In this document: positions 4,149 to 22,001 of the stretch, one piece after another
Layout of the letters: every line of letters starts with the position of its first letter
Position numbering within the stretch: the first letter of the stretch is position 1
From: a virus
Reading direction: 5' to 3' (one strand)
IMG/VR virus record: IMGVR_UViG_3300009135_000008
Span: 1 to 37,441 of that record
DNA: 37,441 nucleotides
Notes under the pieces: generated by a model
The model's database searches: none
What the model was told of the DNA's origin: nothing
Seen by the model: only the letters and a program-made list of their open reading frames with translations
Position numbers and translations under genes: made by a program

Positions 4149-4615
4149 GCAAAAAACCTCGCTTTAATTGTTTCGTTTGCGCTGACGGTTGTGGAATAAA
4201 CCTCGCCTGTGGCAGAAAAAGTGATGCCGCCAGTGGTGGTTAAAAGAATATCCCCCGACCCTTTGGCAGTAATATCAATACCAATATTGGTATCCGTTCC
4301 CACCGCATTAATATCTATCGAATCCGTGGTAGCGGAACCGGTAAAATTAAAACCATTAACCGCCGTGGCCACCGTTTTAAATTGCACAATATCCGTGCCA
4401 CCTAACTTGAAGTCGATTTGATTGTTCGTGTCCGCCTGAAGAGACGTATCCGCATCGGCATCAAGAATTAACTCTTGTCCGTTTAAATCAAGGTTGCCGG
4501 TTAAGGGGGAAATTAAGGTAAAAGCGTTGGATAGGATGTTGTTGAATTCGGTGTTTAAGTCGCTTGCGGTTAAAACTTCGGCAGCGGCCCACACCTTAAC
4601 TCGTGAAAGTGCCAT
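4145..4615 (-). CDS. Tail-fibre-like protein with repeating beta elements
   Basis: A 156-residue protein. The N-terminal motif VKVWAAAEVLTASDLNTEFNNI is typical of short phage tail-fibre or appendage proteins that begin with a helix docking to the tail. It is followed by LTGNLDLNGQELILDADADTS and strand repeats rich in D/N/T/G, as in trimeric fibre shafts. It lies directly after the nozzle gene with its stop adjoining that gene's start region. Likely an adhesin or fibre-base component; the exact partner is unknown. Confidence 0.6.
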   Translation of the reverse strand: MALSRVKVWAAAEVLTASDLNTEFNNILSNAFTLISPLTGNLDLNGQELILDADADTSLQADTNNQIDFKLGGTDIVQFKTVATAVNGFNFTGSATTDSIDINAVGTDTNIGIDITAKGSGDILLTTTGGITFSATGEVYSTTVSANETIKARFFA

Positions 4616-6181
4616 TTAATTCTCCGTTGATTCTGCTCCGGGTGTGATCGTGACTGAAAAAGAATGAACCTCTAAATCTTCACTCACACCGTTGTTGGTT
4701 ATTTGATAAGATACGCTTCTCATCTCACCACCCTCCTCTAATTCCATATAGCGATCAATAAATCTAGCGCCACCCAATTGGGATGTGCCTAATGTGAATT
4801 CATTCGCGGTAGCAGGAGCCAACACGTCACCGCCGGACTGAGAAAAGGTTTGTAATTGTTGCGTTTGATCGTCTCGCTCCCAAAGAAAGGTTCCGTTATA
4901 TTCTCCCTTTGGCTTGATCCCCACACTGGCCCGCTCGATGGTTTTCATCATCATAGGGTTGCCGTAGGTTAAGTGAGGCGTGGTGACTTTATAATTAATA
5001 GACGTTGCGCCATCAAGAGACCGAGTCACGACATTGGAACGTCTTAAAAAACCGTCTGTGCCGCCCAGGAAGATTCGATCAAGATTGTTAGTGTCGGTAA
5101 ACAAAGCCATAGACTCCGCATTGTAGGCAGAGATATAAGACCACCGGATAGGATTAAAACGATAGTCCATTAACAGGATCGCATTGTTGGTGCTGTTCGT
5201 ATCAATAGAAATGGAAAACATCACCCAACCTTCCAGAGGATGGTTGGTTGCCCAGATATTTTTAAGTCGGTTATAGTTAAGGTGGTTTTTGATCCACGTT
5301 TGGATAGGCCGACTTAAAGCCGCCTCATCAAAATCACCATAAGCATCTGTAGCCCTCAAGCTATGAATTGTACCGAACTGACTCACAAAACCTAAGTCGT
5401 CTCCAAACTTAAAAATAGAGTTATGCCAAGCCGCCCCGAGTCCCGTAATGAAAGGGATACGCGCAAAGTCTGAGGTAGAGCTGCCCGTGATACGATGAAT
5501 ACTGCCTTTATACGGGCCTTTAAACACCCACAAATCATCCTTGTGCGAAGCAATGCCCGTAATTCTGTCGCCATCGTTTGGATCGATTTGAATCGTCCCA
5601 GAACCGGCTCCTATCCAGTCTTCTGGATCTTCAGAAACACTGTAATAAAGCGTCGAAGGGTTCGCATCCACACCCGCCGCAAACATCCTGTTTTTATGAG
5701 CGACAGAAAAAGCAAAGTTAGGCGGCGTTCCGCCCAAGTTTTGAGCCGTGGATTGATCCCAACTCTTAGGCACATCAGAATTAGACGAACTGGAAATAAT
5801 CAGAAAATCATCAAAGGTCGCGTAAGAGGGAATGGCATCACTCTCCAGGCCGGTGAAAATATTAGCAAAAACATTATCGTCGTTATCGGCTAAAATAACC
5901 GTACCCGCATGAATCACTTTCCGACGCGCGGGCGTGCCACCCACACCTTGTTTCCAATAATCATAACAACCGCGAATCGCCGCACCCGAAGCCACTGCAA
6001 CAGAGTTTAATTTCTCCGTACCGCCTATCTTATGTGGCCCACCGTCCAATTCAAAAAAAACATTTTCGGCATCCCAAAGAAACGGAATGTTTATCTTTCC
6101 TTCCTGATTGGGCGAAGCATCGGTAGTCGGGCCTAAGTCGCTGGCCCAGCCCCCACCAAAAAAATGCCGGATAACGGCCAC
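4616..6181 (-). CDS. Tail nozzle / hub protein, beta-propeller type
   Basis: A 521-residue protein. The N-terminal half carries blade-like repeats (YYSVSEDPEDW, GTIQIDPNDGDRITGIASHKDDLWVFK, GSIHRITG, GTIHSLRATDAYG) matching the propeller of podovirus nozzle proteins such as T7 gp12 or P22 gp10. Those proteins close the tail tube and carry the fibres. The start is GTG at 6181-6179, overlapping the TAG of the adaptor gene. The neighbours, adaptor upstream and short fibre-like genes downstream, fit. The last 130 residues are beta-rich and may contact the fibres. Confidence 0.7.
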   Translation of the reverse strand: MAVIRHFFGGGWASDLGPTTDASPNQEGKINIPFLWDAENVFFELDGGPHKIGGTEKLNSVAVASGAAIRGCYDYWKQGVGGTPARRKVIHAGTVILADNDDNVFANIFTGLESDAIPSYATFDDFLIISSSSNSDVPKSWDQSTAQNLGGTPPNFAFSVAHKNRMFAAGVDANPSTLYYSVSEDPEDWIGAGSGTIQIDPNDGDRITGIASHKDDLWVFKGPYKGSIHRITGSSTSDFARIPFITGLGAAWHNSIFKFGDDLGFVSQFGTIHSLRATDAYGDFDEAALSRPIQTWIKNHLNYNRLKNIWATNHPLEGWVMFSISIDTNSTNNAILLMDYRFNPIRWSYISAYNAESMALFTDTNNLDRIFLGGTDGFLRRSNVVTRSLDGATSINYKVTTPHLTYGNPMMMKTIERASVGIKPKGEYNGTFLWERDDQTQQLQTFSQSGGDVLAPATANEFTLGTSQLGGARFIDRYMELEEGGEMRSVSYQITNNGVSEDLEVHSFSVTITPGAESTEN

Positions 6182-10660: not shown

Positions 10661-11572
10661 TTAACTTACATTGTTTCCTAAAACAAACCTCCAGTCCGAA
10701 TGCGCGTTGGAATAACGAGCATAACCGCGCCATTTCGCCAAAAGCGTATCAAAGTCCTCAACCATGGCAAACTCAACGCCGACACGTTCAACCCAATGCA
10801 GCATTTGTTTCTTCATGCCACTGTCCATCATGAACCAGTTGTTGTTGTCGGTAAGATAATTCCACTCGTAGCCTTTGTACTTGCCACTGTGGACGTTAGG
10901 ATTGTTGTTGGCTGTATCGACCTTGCCAGACGCGTTTATGATCTCATAAGCCTGCTCATACAGATTAGGCGGTTACCACAACTCATCCGGCATCACGGAG
11001 AACCGCTCGGCCTGGTCACCACGGAAACCCACCATCTGAATACGATTCGCTGCAACCGCCGTGGCGGTTAAAGAAGCCGTACCCAAATTATCAAACCCGG
11101 TCGCCGTCGAGGCTCCTGAGTTTGTAGTATGAGCATTCGCACACAGTGCCACACCTTCTGAGTTGTCGTAAAAATAATTGTCAACAGAGAAAGCGTTGTT
11201 CAGCATTCGTGCGCCGTGTTTTTGACGTGTCCGATAATAAGCGTTTGATAAAGACAAAGGCTTTTGATCCATGATGTTAAATTGATCATCATCAAAAAGC
11301 TTGCGCTCAATCTGAACGCCGCCCGTGAACTCAACAGGCGTCGAGGTGGTATCGTAACCTTGAGACTGCTCACTGTAATTCACCGTACCCGTGAATTCCG
11401 AGAAGTCCGGCAACGTCCCAACTTGGCTCCACGTCATATTGTTCCGGCCATTGGTAGACTCGAAGTTATACAACGAAGGCAGCATATCGGGCAAAGCATC
11501 AAGATTTTCATAGAAAATCCGTTGGAACCTTGGATCGAGTAAGTCACCAAAGGCAGTTGAAATATTAGGCAT
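10661..11572 (-). CDS. Major capsid protein (Mu gpT-like), interrupted by an in-frame TAA at codon 200
   Basis: The start ATG at 11572-11570 has AGGAGG 7-12 bases upstream; an upstream-extended reading lacks this. The protein MPNISTAFGDLLDPRFQRIF resembles Mu gpT/HK97-fold capsid proteins. Matching features include TPVEFTGGVQIERKLFDDDQ, SLSNAYYRTRQKHGARMLNNAF (spine-helix region) and VALCANAHT. At 10975-10973 the codon after PDELW is TAA. The same frame then continues for 103 codons (PPNLYEQAYEIINASGK ... YARYSNAHSDWRFVLGNNVS) to a TAA at 10663-10661. The full reading of 303 residues has the expected family length and the join sits in the conserved PP-containing loop. No frameshift is needed; one base change (for example from a Tyr, Gln, Lys, Glu, Leu or Ser codon) would make the TAA. 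It may be a nonsense mutation, a sequence error or readthrough. Confidence 0.8.
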
Positions 11573-11582
11573 GATAGCCTCC

Positions 11583-12296
11583 TTATGTTGGTCGTGGCCC
11601 CCAGACATGATCGCCAGAAACAGCATAAACAAAACTGTTTGTCTGTCCTGAATCGGTAATGTCTCGGAGGTCAAGCTCTACAGGAACAAATTCCGCACCC
11701 GTGGCGACCGCAATACTGGCATCGGCCTGGGTGAGATTTGTCGTTAATTGGATGGCAACACTTTGCGTAGGCCAGTATGGCGCACGTAAAAAGTTATTAC
11801 CGACAGCGGTGTCTTGATCGAAAGCAACCGTCACGGTTCCGGCGGTGCCAGAGACGGAGGTAATCTTACGAAAAGCCCCCGAATTCGCCCCGTCATAACC
11901 CCAGGTCACACCTTCATCAAAGGTCGGTGAGTCCCAAGCACTGGCCGTGGTAATAACCAAACCAGTAGTGGATGCCGTAGTAACAGGCAAAAGCGTTAAA
12001 GCGGTATTTTCTGTTGCACCGCCTGAAAGCTTAATTCGCCATACCGCATCGGGATTTACGATCATAGTAACTTCACGTTCCGCGCTGGTTCCGTCCGTCT
12101 GTTGAGCAGTAACATAAGTGGCTCCGTCAAGAGTGACGCCCACCATATTAGCGGCACTTGTCGTAGTTGACGTGGCCAAACCTGCCCCTCCAGCCGCCGG
12201 GATCAACAATGGAACGCCCGCGACGGCGGTAGCGGCAACCTGGTATTTCTTCATAACAGGCGCGCTATTACCGGTGAGGGAATATGCATATTGCAT
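11583..12296 (-). CDS. Capsid decoration / cement-like protein
   Basis: A 237-residue, Ala/Thr/Val-rich protein. The N-terminus (MQYAYSLTGNSAPVMKKYQVAATAVAGVPLLIPAAGGAGL) is typical of proteins encoded just before gpT-like capsid genes. The rest is beta-rich with a C-terminal WGPRPT. A GGAGAAACAAA ribosome site precedes the ATG. It lies 10 bases before the capsid gene, where lambda-like phages encode the decoration protein, so a capsid-surface role is likely though not proven. Confidence 0.55.
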   Translation of the reverse strand: MQYAYSLTGNSAPVMKKYQVAATAVAGVPLLIPAAGGAGLATSTTTSAANMVGVTLDGATYVTAQQTDGTSAEREVTMIVNPDAVWRIKLSGGATENTALTLLPVTTASTTGLVITTASAWDSPTFDEGVTWGYDGANSGAFRKITSVSGTAGTVTVAFDQDTAVGNNFLRAPYWPTQSVAIQLTTNLTQADASIAVATGAEFVPVELDLRDITDSGQTNSFVYAVSGDHVWGPRPT

Positions 12297-16826: not shown

Positions 16827-17296
16827 TACTCACCCTTCACATAACTAACGAACTCTTCAGAACTTTCAAAAGAACCTATCGTTCTACACTGAGCGGGTTC
16901 GCCTGAAATCAAATACCACATGTATAATTCTACCTTGTCGCTATTCGGCACACCCTCTGTCATAGGCTTGAATCTCCAATATAGTTTATTTCCACCTTCA
17001 TTTAATTTTTTACAATTTAATAAAAACCCTTCCCAAGCCTTTAAACATAAAAGCTCTTCCATCGCTGCGTTTGCACGCACCGCCTCTTCATCACTAACAT
17101 AATATTGATATTCAACATATTCTTCACCCGTTACTGAGTGGTGATGATCAGTACTTACGCCAACAGGTAAAACGGCTTCCATCAACTTAACCAGCTCGTC
17201 AATTGTTTTTGGCGGCAGCCACTCCCAAAATTTCGGATCAACATAAGTAGAACCATAATGTTCTCTGCATTTATATTTTGTTGGTTTTGTCATCAA
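16826..17296 (-). CDS. Hypothetical protein after terminase
   Basis: A 156-residue acidic protein with a His-rich stretch (STDHHHSVTGEEYVEYQYYVSD, about 49-70) and aromatic residues throughout (KLYWRFKPM, ELYMWYLISG). Its ATG overlaps the terminase stop by ATGA. There is no signal peptide or Cys pair. I do not recognise the family. Confidence 0.5.
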   Translation of the reverse strand: MMTKPTKYKCREHYGSTYVDPKFWEWLPPKTIDELVKLMEAVLPVGVSTDHHHSVTGEEYVEYQYYVSDEEAVRANAAMEELLCLKAWEGFLLNCKKLNEGGNKLYWRFKPMTEGVPNSDKVELYMWYLISGEPAQCRTIGSFESSEEFVSYVKGE

Positions 17297-18924
17297 TATT
17301 TACTCCCCTTTAGTCGTCTAATCACAGGCGCACCGCCACTTAAATACCGGAAATCGGGATCGGAATTCATTAAATATTTCCACATCGTTGGAAAATCATC
17401 ATATTTTTGTTTCGGTTTTTGTTTAATGCCTTTCTCTAATTTCTGCCGGAAGTCATCCCAGACATATCGCTTGAATTGATATATCGTATTTTTGCATGCG
17501 TGATGGATATGCATTCTGGGTTGTTCGCGTGTCTTTTCAGGTTTTAAATATTCGTTTATTCTCTGTCGTCCAACATCGGAATCATCGGCCAGGTCACAAT
17601 AAAGTCCCGCTGAATCAAATTCGTCACGCCATGTTATCCCGCGTTTTGAGCTGGCCGGTGAGGCACCCATATTGGGATCGATCAATCTTCTAACCACATT
17701 CAAATTAAGCTCGGCCTCAACAGCGTCACACGCTTGCTTAACTTCAACACAGTCTCCCTCTACTTCCAGTTCCGCCACTTGCCATAAATCATCGTAAGGG
17801 TCGATTTGTACCCACATCATCATGTGTGGTTTTCTTGGGTGCGGATCAAGAACGTAGAGAGTGGGCCATGTGGCGGGGTCGTCTTCATGGACATGGCTGA
17901 AGCTTAAAATGTCACCCGCGCATGAAGAGCATTTGTTCTCAACGGCTAAAGTCGTTTTCCCACAACTGAAGCACCAATATTGTGTGATGTCCGTGAAAAG
18001 AGAATGTACCCGATTTGAAAATCGAATAGGCTGACCAAGGATTCTGACCTTGCGAACCTCTTCAGACCAGGCATCACTTTGAGTCGCAATAGCCGTCTGG
18101 TTTAAAAATCGGTTATCCGTGGTGTAAAGATTGATCCATTCAATGTTGGGATTTTTGTTTGGGCCAGGAGAGCCGGGGTCGTAAACCTCATCGAAGATCC
18201 AATCCACGGCAATCGCCGGATCGTCAGGGAACGTCATCGCCATCAACATACGTCCGCCCACACGCATGGTTCTGGCTTGATTTTCTCGCCATATTGCATA
18301 AGAGGGCGGTTCATCATGAAGCACAATATGGAAGTCACCCGAAGCAAAATCCGTTGGGTCTTGATCGACAGACATAAACTGGATCGTGGACTCGCCCCAA
18401 TACTTACCTTTTCTTTCGTCCCAATATTTTATTCGTAAGATTCGCAGCTTTTCAGACCAGGACTTATCCCAAGCCCCCTCTATTAAAGAGGTTCGCGGTA
18501 TCCACCCCCAGTGACCTTTATCGCCGCCGGGTTCCGACACGCCCGTCCACTTCCACCATTGGATCTTAGGTAAAATAATAGGATGCAAAACCGTTGTGAG
18601 CGATTCGCAGACAACGCGACAATTAATCGGCCCCCTTAATTTGCTTTTATCAAAATCCAAATCTTCCGGTATAATACCCGTGGCACAAATCAACAACTCA
18701 ACAAGAGAAGTTTCAGTTTTACTGGAGCCGTTACCGCCAAATAAAGCAACTGTGCTGGCCGTAGAGGTGTGGAGTTTTGCCGACTCAGAAGAAACAGGGT
18801 CATAATAAAGAAGCTGGTTCTCCTGTCTGTCTCGCTCTTCAAGATTTAAAATCTCAACTAATTTTTGCTGGAACTCTTCGTCGGTTAAATTTTCAAGATC
18901 ATCCCCCGTCGGTAGCATACTCAC
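17293..18924 (-). CDS. terL: Terminase large subunit
   Basis: A 543-residue DNA-packaging motor protein. Walker A is FGGNGSSKT (about 62-70). Walker B is HIVLHDEPP (about 199-207), with Asp-Glu as metal ligand and catalytic residue. The C-terminal nuclease domain shows acidic residues at YVLDPHPRKP (Asp360), RRLIDPNMG (Asp416) and DDFPTMWKYL (Asp509/510), as expected for the RNase H-like fold. Between the two domains, WCFSCG and CSSCAG (Cys319, 321/322 region and Cys332/335) form a likely zinc ribbon, an insertion found only in some terminase lineages. It overlaps the small-subunit gene by 26 bases. Confidence 0.9.
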   Translation of the reverse strand: MSMLPTGDDLENLTDEEFQQKLVEILNLEERDRQENQLLYYDPVSSESAKLHTSTASTVALFGGNGSSKTETSLVELLICATGIIPEDLDFDKSKLRGPINCRVVCESLTTVLHPIILPKIQWWKWTGVSEPGGDKGHWGWIPRTSLIEGAWDKSWSEKLRILRIKYWDERKGKYWGESTIQFMSVDQDPTDFASGDFHIVLHDEPPSYAIWRENQARTMRVGGRMLMAMTFPDDPAIAVDWIFDEVYDPGSPGPNKNPNIEWINLYTTDNRFLNQTAIATQSDAWSEEVRKVRILGQPIRFSNRVHSLFTDITQYWCFSCGKTTLAVENKCSSCAGDILSFSHVHEDDPATWPTLYVLDPHPRKPHMMMWVQIDPYDDLWQVAELEVEGDCVEVKQACDAVEAELNLNVVRRLIDPNMGASPASSKRGITWRDEFDSAGLYCDLADDSDVGRQRINEYLKPEKTREQPRMHIHHACKNTIYQFKRYVWDDFRQKLEKGIKQKPKQKYDDFPTMWKYLMNSDPDFRYLSGGAPVIRRLKGSKY

Positions 18925-19597: not shown

Positions 19598-19620
19598 AAA
19601 AAAACCACCCGAAGGTGGTT
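19598..19620 (-). terminator. Intrinsic terminator upstream of the terminase genes
   Basis: On the minus strand AACCACC-TTCG-GGTGGTT (19620-19603) is a perfect 7-bp stem followed by T7 (19604-19598). It lies 45 bases after the stop of the 70-residue gene, so it separates the RNA/YkgJ transcription unit from the packaging genes unless antiterminated. A second inverted repeat, AACTACT/AGTAGTT, lies at about 19629-19647. Confidence 0.85.
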
Positions 19621-19877: not shown

Positions 19878-20268
19878 GTATTTTTTCCCACAATAGTCGA
19901 ATTATCTTAATTTGCAAACGTTTGCACTCAATTAAATCTTTCGATACTTTATATCCAGGCTTGATGCCTAAACGATTTCTGATATACGCTTCTGTCAAGC
20001 GGTCTCTATATTTGTTTGTGCATTTCTTCTGGTTATCTTTTTGATTTTCCCTATAGGATTTAGCCTTCTCAGGATTGGCTTGCCGCCATTCTTTATCCCT
20101 TATTTTTTTCTTTTCCCTTTGATCTTCTCCGCCATAAACCCTTTTTAGATGCGCCTTGTTATGGCATTTTTTACACGTCCATCGCCTTAACCTTCTACCC
20201 GTTTTCCCTTTATATTCAGGGAAGTTCTCAAGAGGGAATTCTTCTTTACACTTCTTACAAACCCTCAT
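19855..20268 (-). CDS. Zinc-finger protein, HNH-adjacent type
   Basis: A 137-residue, strongly basic protein. CKKC (residues 4-7) and CKKCHNKAHLKR (about 32-43) form a likely zinc site of the kind that opens many phage HNH-type or DNA-binding proteins (MRVCKKCKEEFPLENFPEYKGK). The His-Asn-His catalytic core is not visible, so I do not call it a nuclease. The middle is a Lys/Arg/Gln helix (about 50-95). It overlaps the YkgJ-like gene by 14 bases. Confidence 0.55.
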   Translation of the reverse strand: MRVCKKCKEEFPLENFPEYKGKTGRRLRRWTCKKCHNKAHLKRVYGGEDQREKKKIRDKEWRQANPEKAKSYRENQKDNQKKCTNKYRDRLTEAYIRNRLGIKPGYKVSKDLIECKRLQIKIIRLLWEKIHERRERR

Positions 20269-20866
20269 TTTTTTCTAATTCTTTATTAACCATATGCGCC
20301 AGCGTTGCGTTACCTTTAATAGGCGTTATGTTGATCATAGCTGAATAAGTTACTTCGCTCCTGGGTAAAAATAATATCTTTACTATTTTTGGTGAGCCGT
20401 CCTGAATGGCGCAATCTTGAACATCACCCGTTACATAATATTTACGACAAGCAGCAGGTCTGTTTTTGTAGATTTGACATTCGTTTTGTTTAAGAAAAAT
20501 ACAGGGGCGCGGATTATTTTTGAAATCATCGCTGTCCATATTTTTTTGATATTCGAATTCAGTTTGGTCTATTTCAACTTGACCGTTTTTGATCAAGTCA
20601 GCCATCAAAATTGCTTCATCATCAAAAACATCAACGTTCATATAACAGCAATGACAGCAGTCTTTTTGACAAGCTGCTTTTTCCGGGCTTTTAAGTAAAT
20701 CTAAACGTAACCCATTATCCATTAATTCATGAAACTGATTAATTCTATTTTTGCTGTTTAAATTTTTTAAATCTCTTGCTGCCTCAAAAACCATCCGCCC
20801 TATACTGGCTTTTATACTATCACTTTCATCTTTCATTGCTTCTAGTAGATTATTGCTAATCTGCAT
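20255..20866 (-). CDS. YkgJ-family cysteine-cluster protein
   Basis: A 203-residue protein with the signature of the YkgJ family, a putative metal- or iron-sulfur-binding family: CQKDCCHCCYMNVDVFDDEAILMA (about 66-89), then RPCIFLKQNECQIYKNRPAACRKYYV (about 120-145) and a later DC pair. The cysteine spacing is complete, so the metal site should be intact. A GGGGAGG ribosome site precedes the ATG. It is the first protein gene after the large structured RNA, with only about 20 bases between them. The role in the phage is unknown. Confidence 0.75.
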   Translation of the reverse strand: MQISNNLLEAMKDESDSIKASIGRMVFEAARDLKNLNSKNRINQFHELMDNGLRLDLLKSPEKAACQKDCCHCCYMNVDVFDDEAILMADLIKNGQVEIDQTEFEYQKNMDSDDFKNNPRPCIFLKQNECQIYKNRPAACRKYYVTGDVQDCAIQDGSPKIVKILFLPRSEVTYSAMINITPIKGNATLAHMVNKELEKNEGL

Positions 20867-21150
20867 AAACCCTCCCCTTTGTGTGTCAAAAAAGCTCGAA
20901 TCTGATAATTAAGTCCCCCGTAAACCATCGGGGTCAGGCTTGATATATTGAGGGTTGCCGGGGTCTTTTACACCGCTACGTGGACTTGAACCTGTCGCCT
21001 TCCTTCCCTCGATAGTTTTAAAGGTATATCACACCCGTTTATATTCCGCCGGGTCTGGACGGTTGATGTAACTGCTTGCTCTACCCGAAAGTAGGCCAGA
21101 CCTTGAACCTGTTATACGCTCCAGCAGTTGTTTTATATAGCGCCATCATT

Positions 21151-21230
21151 TGCCCAATCTATTCGGCATCACCCCACTGGGCCAGAGTGAGCAGGGACGA
21201 GTACCCGAAGATACCACGCTATGCCTTATT
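21151..21230 (-). repeat. Structured module copy 1 within the large RNA
   Basis: 80 bases, about 89% identical to 21508-21587. On the minus strand GGTATC pairs with GATGCC (21215-21210 with 21170-21165) through a G-U pair, enclosing a GGGT/ACTC helix and CCCAGTGGG. The differences from copy 2 keep the pairing. Confidence 0.85.
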
Positions 21231-21507
21231 AACGGTACTTCTCACGATATGGCCTCTGCTCTATTAAAGTACAGGCGACTGTTTCCAGTCTATCGGCTTA
21301 AAGCTTTATGCATGAGTTTGGAGGTCATACAAAGGTTTTCCTACCTTTGACAGAAGGCTGCATAGACCTTCCATCAAACTAAGAACGGCGCAAACCGAAC
21401 CCAGTTCATACATAGGTGACAGGAAGCGATTATATGATGATATTTTCGTTATCGTATTTAGCCTGTCGCTTTATCCGATAATTTACTTACTCAAATCATA
21501 TGCCGCT

Positions 21508-21587
21508 TGCCCAATCTATTCGGCATCACCCCACTGGGCTAGGGTGTATAAGAACGAGCACCCGAAGATGCCACGCTATGCCTTATT
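21508..21587 (-). repeat. Structured module copy 2 within the large RNA
   Basis: 80 bases, offset 357 from copy 1. GGCATC pairs with GATGCC perfectly (21572-21567 with 21527-21522), and the inner helix is GGGTG/CACCC. Similarity stops abruptly at both edges, so only this domain was duplicated. Confidence 0.85.
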
Positions 21588-21734
21588 GTAAATCCACAGC
21601 GACACGGAGTACGTTTCTCTGCTGCTGTGGAGTCGTACACTTTACCCACTCGCTACGCTCTGGGGCAACTTGACACTCCAGCTTTGCACGTTTTACCGAT
21701 TAAAGCCTTTCTTCAAATAAGGGAGGGGAGGATA

Positions 21735-22001
21735 TCATCCGCCGAAGCGGCTCACAAGTGAGCTGTCAATGGCCTTGCTTGCGTCAAACAAGGCAGAGCC
21801 TGTCTCAAGGGCTTTACCTAGACTAAGAACGGCGTACGTTAGCGATTCTTTCGGCGCAGTTTCTGCAAATTCAAGAAACTTCTCTTGTGTTGTAAAGATT
21901 ACCGGTTCCTTACTGAACACAAGAACTACGTCCCCTCCCTCTGCGATAACGTGAAGATGATCGCTTAATCTGGTAAATTTCTCTAACTTTTCTTTTATCA
22001 T
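21735..22001 (-). CDS. Hypothetical protein directly upstream of the large RNA
   Basis: An 88-residue protein (MIKEKLEKFTRLSDHLHVIAEGGDVVLVFSKEPVIFTTQEKF...) with an N-terminal helix, a beta hairpin (HVIAEGGDVVLVFS), and a helical C-terminal half. It has no Cys. It is the last protein gene before the RNA. AGGGATAACGGGC precedes the ATG. No family is recognised. Confidence 0.5.
   Translation of the reverse strand: MIKEKLEKFTRLSDHLHVIAEGGDVVLVFSKEPVIFTTQEKFLEFAETAPKESLTYAVLSLGKALETGSALFDASKAIDSSLVSRFGG

Follow-up and report, generated by a model that had tools for sequence, protein, structure and literature searches.

Results

Noncoding island upstream of the YkgJ-like gene

The window analyzed here is the whole 37,441-nt stretch of the virus record IMGVR_UViG_3300009135_000008, and its minus strand carries an 868-nt noncoding island that is flanked by an 88-amino-acid ORF (positions 21735 to 22001) and a gene for a putative metal-binding protein. 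The features of the island, apart from two copies of a small domain here called M, and those of the genes beyond it are as follows.

20867-21734, minus strand: noncoding island
21248-21490, minus strand: segment between the two M copies, folding better than its shuffles (z = -4.9; -4.1 for the plus strand)
21277-21290, minus strand: GAAA-tetraloop hairpin, GACUG-GAAA-CAGUC, within that segment
20890-21133, minus strand: 3' segment with two T-loop-like strings, for which no significant fold or relatives were found
21098-21110, minus strand: T-loop-like string AGGUUCAAGGUCU, by sequence resemblance
20982-20992, minus strand: T-loop-like string GGUUCAAGUCC, by sequence resemblance
20255-20866, minus strand: putative metal-binding protein of the CxxCxxCC (YkgJ-like) type, encoded by the first gene downstream (PF03692, 33.1 bits; cut-off, 23)
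19603-19620, minus strand: terminator-like hairpin AACCACC-TTCG-GGTGGTT followed by TTTTTATG, from a consensus scan; candidate transcript end for the island
17293-18924, minus strand: putative terminase large subunit (TerL), with a Walker-A-like GGNGSSKT; two relatives match phrog_6672 (terminase family)

No ORF of at least 60 amino acids was found on the minus strand of the island; on the plus strand, two short ORFs of 63 and 66 amino acids overlap it. A protein gene was therefore ruled out as its content, in agreement with an earlier reading made from the letters of this DNA (the sequence-only reading), which had seen no credible protein gene here and had correctly placed a YkgJ-family gene directly after the region. 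The candidate TerL gene itself gave zero matches in a profile search; the portal gene of the window was identified by phrog_1216. No tRNA cloverleaf was detected in the window by either ARAGORN or the tRNA model (RF00005). Rfam at its curated cut-offs matched nothing in the entire window, and at E ≤ 10 it gave only weak matches to the island, including one to Methylophilales-1 (RF03011) at 21143 to 21235 (17.2 bits). Elsewhere in the window, a major-capsid-like ORF (phrog_371; 10973 to 11674, minus strand) ends at an in-frame TAA, and capsid-like sequence runs on in the same frame for about 105 codons past it; the TAA is either an assembly error or a real interruption.

The sequence-only reading had described the island as an ornate structured RNA of 830 bases with many long helices. 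An excess of long helices over chance was not confirmed: the folding energy of the whole region is ordinary on either strand (z = -0.68), and folding energy was consequently dropped as proof of structure. When segments were folded separately, only that at 21248 to 21490 was unusually stable, and the 5' part, the 3' part, and the M domains were all ordinary. The predicted GNRA hairpin was confirmed as the GAAA hairpin listed above; the two T-loop-like motifs are present as strings that resemble T-loops in sequence.

No DNA related to the island as a whole was found among 50,697 phage records, through the YkgJ-like gene, or among 11 terminase relatives. The roughly 680 nt of the island that lie outside M likewise had no relatives in the phage records or the terminase relatives.

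Two copies of a pseudoknot domain

The island contains an 81-nt direct repeat (21507 to 21587 and 21150 to 21230), the copies of which are 89% identical and 357 nt apart. Its elements are as follows; R1 is a covariance model of M.

21509-21587, minus strand: M1, 79-nt pseudoknot domain, first copy, AAUAAGGCA...GAAUAGAUUGGGC (R1, 79.3 bits, E = 1e-20, with the window copies included in the model)
21598-21605 and 21500-21507, minus strand: possible outer stem P1 of M1, 8 bp, GUGUCGCU/AGCGGCAU, suggested by the family-wide excess of P1
21579-21582 and 21522-21525, minus strand: helix P2 of M1, GGCA/UGCC
21557-21572, minus strand: helix P3 of M1, a variable UUCG hairpin, GGCAUC-UUCG-GGUGCU
21542-21546 and 21527-21531, minus strand: helix P4 of M1, CACCC/GGGUG, covarying over 61 sequences
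21535-21539 and 21509-21513, minus strand: pseudoknot of M1, GCCCA in the P4 loop with UGGGC, from the fixed-register pairing test
21152-21230, minus strand: M2, second copy, 79 nt (R1, 66.8 bits, with the window copies included in the model; RF03011, 17.2 bits, E = 0.028)
21249-21253 and 21142-21146, minus strand: possible outer stem of M2, 5 bp and weak, GCCAU/AUGGC
21200-21215, minus strand: helix P3 of M2, GGUAUC-UUCG-GGUACU
21178-21182 and 21152-21156, minus strand: pseudoknot of M2, GCCCA/UGGGC, on the same evidence as that of M1

Between the two copies, P3 shows a compensatory change from C-G to U-A. The P1 candidate of M1 competes with an upstream CCACAGC/GCUGUGG hairpin. The pseudoknots of M1 and M2 are probably the two that the sequence-only reading had thought plausible; they proved to be real, being two copies of one repeat whose pseudoknot covaries across phages.

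Two copies in one island are rare. Only 1 of 50 other records searched had a second copy, and this lay on the opposite strand; in that record (L102), the copies are at G040:17110-17221 (plus strand) and 4547-4657 (minus strand), 12 kb apart. One MAG contig carries two copies on a single strand, about 1.45 kb apart.

M is a widespread phage RNA family

A search pattern consisting of the two outer repeat words only (ATAAGGCA...TGCCGAATAGATT) matched 24 other viral contigs, and more were recovered with further patterns that were added later. In all, 61 distinct versions of M were collected from diverse phage records. BLAST searches with 18 motif sequences gave matches, nearly all of them unannotated, in named Aeromonas phages (ST4, 4_4512, 62AhydR11PP, LAh_6, LAh_8, LAh_9, and 4_4572) and Salmonella phages (PAT1, 65FD, 66FD, and VB_ST_SPNIS2, the last partial). 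The R1 model detected M in 51 of 51 records searched, all of which had been chosen for having M, and matched nothing in other phage loci totaling 714 kb or in the terminase relatives. Outside phages, 10 matches were found among 84,980 cellular species, only about 3 of which are the real motif, and a cellular origin of M was rejected on this scarcity. In the family of the M-carrying Caballeronia, 1 of 200 genomes had M under strict filters, and this was the seed itself. A search of plasmids with four motif versions found none.

The layout of M is an outer stem, P1, followed by AAUAA and by helix P2 (GGCA/UGCC), which encloses the variable hairpin P3 and the hairpin P4. The P4 helix occurs as CUCC/GGAG, CACC/GGUG, GGCC/GGCC, or AGGUC/GGCCU; its loop ends in NNNNA and is followed by GUG, GAAUAGAU, and a UNNNN strand that pairs back into the P4 loop. 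The single strands AAUAA, GUG, and GAAUAGAU are invariant.

The conserved unit measures about 75 to 130 nt in other phages and can stand alone in a gap of about 110 to 160 nt. When delimited by a rough ORF rule, the noncoding gaps that hold M span about 110 nt at the smallest and 1.5 kb at the largest, with a median of about 440 nt, and in the named phages M lies within noncoding stretches of 0.6 to 1.1 kb. This range of gap sizes indicates that M is a portable unit and that large islands are optional.

Covariation of the M helices

The pseudoknot strands were absent from the search patterns, and pairing was tested in 61 distinct sequences (40 in a first round). In a fixed register, positions 1 to 4 of the pseudoknot formed 209 of 244 possible standard pairs, compared with 132 ± 5.9 when the partners were permuted without reference to a tree; the maximum among 5,000 permutations was 153. 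This permutation takes no account of phylogeny. A control that does keep relatedness, in which the register was slid, gave 61 to 91 of 183 pairs, compared with 150 of 183 in register. For P4, 307 pairs were observed versus 209 ± 9.5 in a tree-free permutation of the 61 sequences that allowed equal freedom of loop length. A P1 of at least 6 bp occurred in 37 of the 61 versions versus 17 after permutation (maximum, 24), with perfect stems of up to 19 bp, and an obvious P1 was missing in about 24. P2 is neutral in this respect because it is nearly invariant in the family. Taken together, these comparisons argue that the M pseudoknot does form, its pairing being kept by compensatory change. The covariation expected of the island's helices was thus found for the pseudoknot, P4, and P1 of M, and the remaining 680 nt or so have no relatives in which to look for it.

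Relation of M to Methylophilales-1, GOLLD, and ROOL

In 15 of 30 phage records, the Methylophilales-1 model (RF03011) aligned at M over its whole length, positions 1 to 103. The highest scores were 55.8 bits (L036; E = 3.8e-13), 52.1 (L037), 45.6 (L042 and L045), and 44.5 (L043); PAT1 scored 28.0 bits (E = 3.2e-5). The homologous architecture is therefore established at the level of a superfamily and through the relatives, the window copy alone standing at E = 0.028. The curated cut-off for RF03011 is 79.9 bits, which neither the window (17.2) nor its best relative (55.8) reaches, and under the rule that Rfam itself applies, the two copies in the window are not members of Methylophilales-1. 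Because all M scores fall under this cut-off, Rfam misses a wide phage family. M belongs to a superfamily, one corner of which is described by RF03011. We are highly confident that M is a phage-borne pseudoknot RNA domain homologous to Methylophilales-1. Among the papers searched, none names Methylophilales-1 and none deals with a hammerhead-terminase link.

The sequence-only reading had also pointed to the large phage RNAs GOLLD and ROOL. Neither the GOLLD model (RF02032; conserved 3' region) nor the ROOL model (RF03087) matched the window at E ≤ 10, and membership of the island in either family was rejected; the ROOL result is the weaker negative, since that model matched nowhere in the control genomes as well. 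What survives of the proposed likeness is the genomic habit: M is phage-borne, and its relatives occur in tRNA islands with pseudo-tRNAs.

These results bear on whether the island is one ornate RNA of about 840 nt that folds as a whole, perhaps as a GOLLD- or ROOL-like multimer with the M domains as repeated building blocks. The continuous 868-nt noncoding island, the stability of its middle segment (z = -4.9), and the presence of two near-identical domains, a GAAA loop, and T-loop-like strings would all suit such an RNA, as would the 0.6-to-1.1-kb noncoding stretches around M in named phages and the setting of GOLLD itself, which contains a pseudo-tRNA and is surrounded by tRNA genes (PMC6582537, PMC12286853). 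However, the GOLLD and ROOL models fail to match, the energy of the whole region is ordinary, M stands alone in gaps of about 110 to 160 nt in some phages, and the non-M parts are without relatives. We consider a single large RNA unlikely, although it is the main alternative to the reading of M as a small trans-acting RNA. Structured RNA on the minus strand was thus borne out for two copies of about 79 nt; a single 830-nt unit is unproven because the flanking 680 nt or so have no relatives.

Genomic context of M

M lies near tRNA genes far more often than random placement would predict, and within tRNA arrays it is found beside or between the tRNAs. Among 17 tRNA-bearing records, a tRNA occurred within 500 nt of M in 8 (0.85 for random placement) and within 100 nt in 5 (0.34), counts that were reached by none of 5,000 simulations; most M-bearing records had no tRNA detected at all. 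In L092, whose contig holds about 20 tRNAs, a tRNA, M, and a terminator follow in order; in L096, M follows a tRNA; and in L110, a tRNA begins 5 nt after the M pseudoknot. Downstream of M, 62AhydR11PP carries tRNA-Asn and then a terminator, ST4 carries three tRNAs and then a terminator, and PAT1 carries a terminator. Several named phages have a terminator-like hairpin downstream of the M-carrying stretch. In an 86-kb phage contig, a permuted tmRNA (RF04321/RF01850; L024:3532-3887) directly adjoins M. In the Lahexavirus loci L050:3758-4051 and L051:3717-4013, M has a gene for a ProQ-type RNA chaperone about 1 kb upstream, on its own strand.

Proximity to tRNA genes is much stronger than proximity to the terminase. 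The packaging genes named in the sequence-only reading are indeed close by in the window, the island being 2.2 kb from TerL, and family-wide the enrichment is mild: M lay within 2.2 kb of TerL in 9 of 26 records, compared with 3.7 expected (P = 0.007). TerL proximity as the main placement rule was rejected on this weakness. The 2.2-kb distance in the window and these counts speak for a DNA-packaging RNA or packaging-site feature that works with the terminase in the manner of the phi29 pRNA. Against this, the other 17 of 26 records have M farther from TerL, by up to 36 kb, the excess within 1.1 kb is not significant (P = 0.08), and the M RNA may be oriented away from the terminase; we regard a packaging role as very improbable and place it last among the alternatives.

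No conserved neighbor gene of M was found: among 138 neighboring proteins, the commonest family occurred only 4 times, which argues against a cis-regulator of one gene. The absence of a common downstream gene also weighs against a riboswitch or a self-cleaving ribozyme, in which the junction bases around the pseudoknot would form a ligand pocket or active site, and so does the fact that no gene separates the two copies in the window. The variable helices, invariant junction bases, and pseudoknot of M do resemble such RNAs, but we think this reading quite improbable and rank it third. Ahead of it, and behind the single large RNA, comes a cis-acting element for processing or stability of the late mRNA, by which M would mark or protect a cleavage point between genes or tRNAs. 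M is placed between genes in operons, lies in 38 of 61 cases on the strand of the gene that follows it, and adjoins tRNAs, which are themselves cut from those transcripts. In PAT1 and ST4, however, M is transcribed opposite to the neighboring structural genes, and its elaborate invariant single strands exceed the needs of a cleavage site, so that a cis role, too, seems unlikely to us.

Exchange of M with tRNA-type cassettes

Three epsilon15-like loci have common flanks. PAT1 has GTTGTGG-M-CCACAACCCAATCACGCC; the prophage of Escherichia coli E2348/69 has, between GTTGTGG and CCACAACCCAATCACGCC, a 113-nt sequence annotated as a pseudo-tRNA-Gly; and phiV10 has a tRNA-Arg in that slot. Thus, in these phages M and a tRNA or tRNA-like RNA alternate on the same 7-bp stem, and the shared flanks and stem indicate that M exchanges with tRNA-type cassettes while the stem is kept. 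Just downstream of M, at L012:2101-2255, lies a degenerate sequence resembling a tRNA, which has a good T arm and a stem of the GTTGTGG/CCACAAC type. The M-carrying stretch of PAT1 (L049:5176-6303) is 1.1 kb long, noncoding, and unannotated, and lies between portal-side genes and the terminase. It has partial relatives in 1,965 of 5,426 complete E. coli genomes and in 76 phages, and relatives also lie beside repressor genes in mEp390 and cdtI; the stretch looks like a mosaic of RNA cassettes.

In CUS-3 and SopranoGao, a different element, X, sits on the same stem as the M of PAT1. X is a second phage RNA element, without an Rfam report in the loci scanned, in which an acceptor-like covarying stem (GUUGUGGU/ACCACAAC) encloses two hairpins with complementary loops (GAAUGCGC-AGGCUGAU-GCGC and GCCGG-AGAUCAGCA-CCGG). 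Its locations include the following.

L010:7832-7850, L003:7022-7040, L046:4707-4725, L056:3508, L060:3252, L104:2648, and L111: element X

X was found in at least 120 viral contigs, and in about 10 loci it shares the strand of M and is separated from it by no more than about 360 nt. Its stem averages 7.2 bp, compared with 5.3 bp after permutation, and its loop pair shows one compensatory change (GAUGAU/AUCAUC in L111).

Discussion

We propose that the island rides the late transcript through the YkgJ-like and endonuclease-VII-like genes to the hairpin at 19603 to 19620. On the reading that we consider likeliest, M would be trimmed from such transcripts as a tRNA is, with P1 serving as an acceptor-like stem for tRNA-processing enzymes, and the released M would accumulate as a stable RNA of about 80 to 130 nt. 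Its AAUAA, GUG, and GAAUAGAU strands might then bind a tRNA-handling host factor as a decoy or ligand; candidate targets are a tRNA-cleaving defense nuclease and a translation factor. In the window, two modules on one transcript could provide a double dose or a bivalent RNA. Charging of M is unlikely because its 3' flank keeps no CCA. The window itself speaks against a tRNA-like release, in that it has no tRNA gene and the P1 stems available to its two copies are weak or of longer range. The lack of an obvious P1 in about 24 of the 61 versions, and of a detected tRNA in most M-bearing records, also counts against it.

That M is a trans-acting RNA of the tRNA habitat is somewhat more likely than not in our judgment. 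The decoy or ligand mechanism is a tentative suggestion, and the whole chain, from the M domain through tRNA-like release, has somewhat less than an even chance of being right. A broader view, possible but doubtful, is that the RNA cassettes of phage late regions, among them tRNAs and their degenerate forms as well as M and the kissing-loop-like X, are interchangeable and built on a common acceptor-like stem, with M and X mimicking tRNA and acting in trans on the host tRNA machinery or on tRNA-targeting defenses.

A barely characterized Rfam motif, earlier catalogued only as a narrow Methylophilales motif, thus becomes a broad family of phage RNAs that spans many phage groups, is known in about 60 distinct versions, and has a pseudoknot supported by covariation. 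The family is tied to tRNA islands, a habitat common to GOLLD and ROOL, and if M and tRNAs do use one slot and one stem, this would point to tRNA mimicry or processing. Culturable carriers are available by name: the Aeromonas phages 62AhydR11PP, ST4, and LAh_8 and the Salmonella phage PAT1.

Comparison with known systems

M shares with Methylophilales-1 the outer stem P1, AAUAAGGca, a variable hairpin, a P4 with a CAGUG loop, and ugCCGAuAUAGAUU. It differs in that GAAUAGAU is commoner in the phage versions than GAuAUAGAU, in its wider range of sequence, and, in the window, in the presence of two copies. Unlike a tRNA, M has no D, anticodon, or T arms and no conserved CCA, and neither ARAGORN nor the tRNA model detected it as one. 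ROOL resembles the island as a large noncoding RNA associated with phages, but sequence or layout in common was not seen. GOLLD has been described among tRNA genes, with a pseudo-tRNA inside it and HNH genes nearby (PMC6582537, PMC12286853). Like the M family, although the window itself has no tRNA, it occurs in phages and prophages and in tRNA clusters with a pseudo-tRNA inside or beside it (PMC6582537, PMC12286853), and its overall length is similar to that of the island in the window, whereas the conserved unit of M is about 79 nt, repeated, and portable. By analogy, GOLLD is the closest parallel to M in habit.
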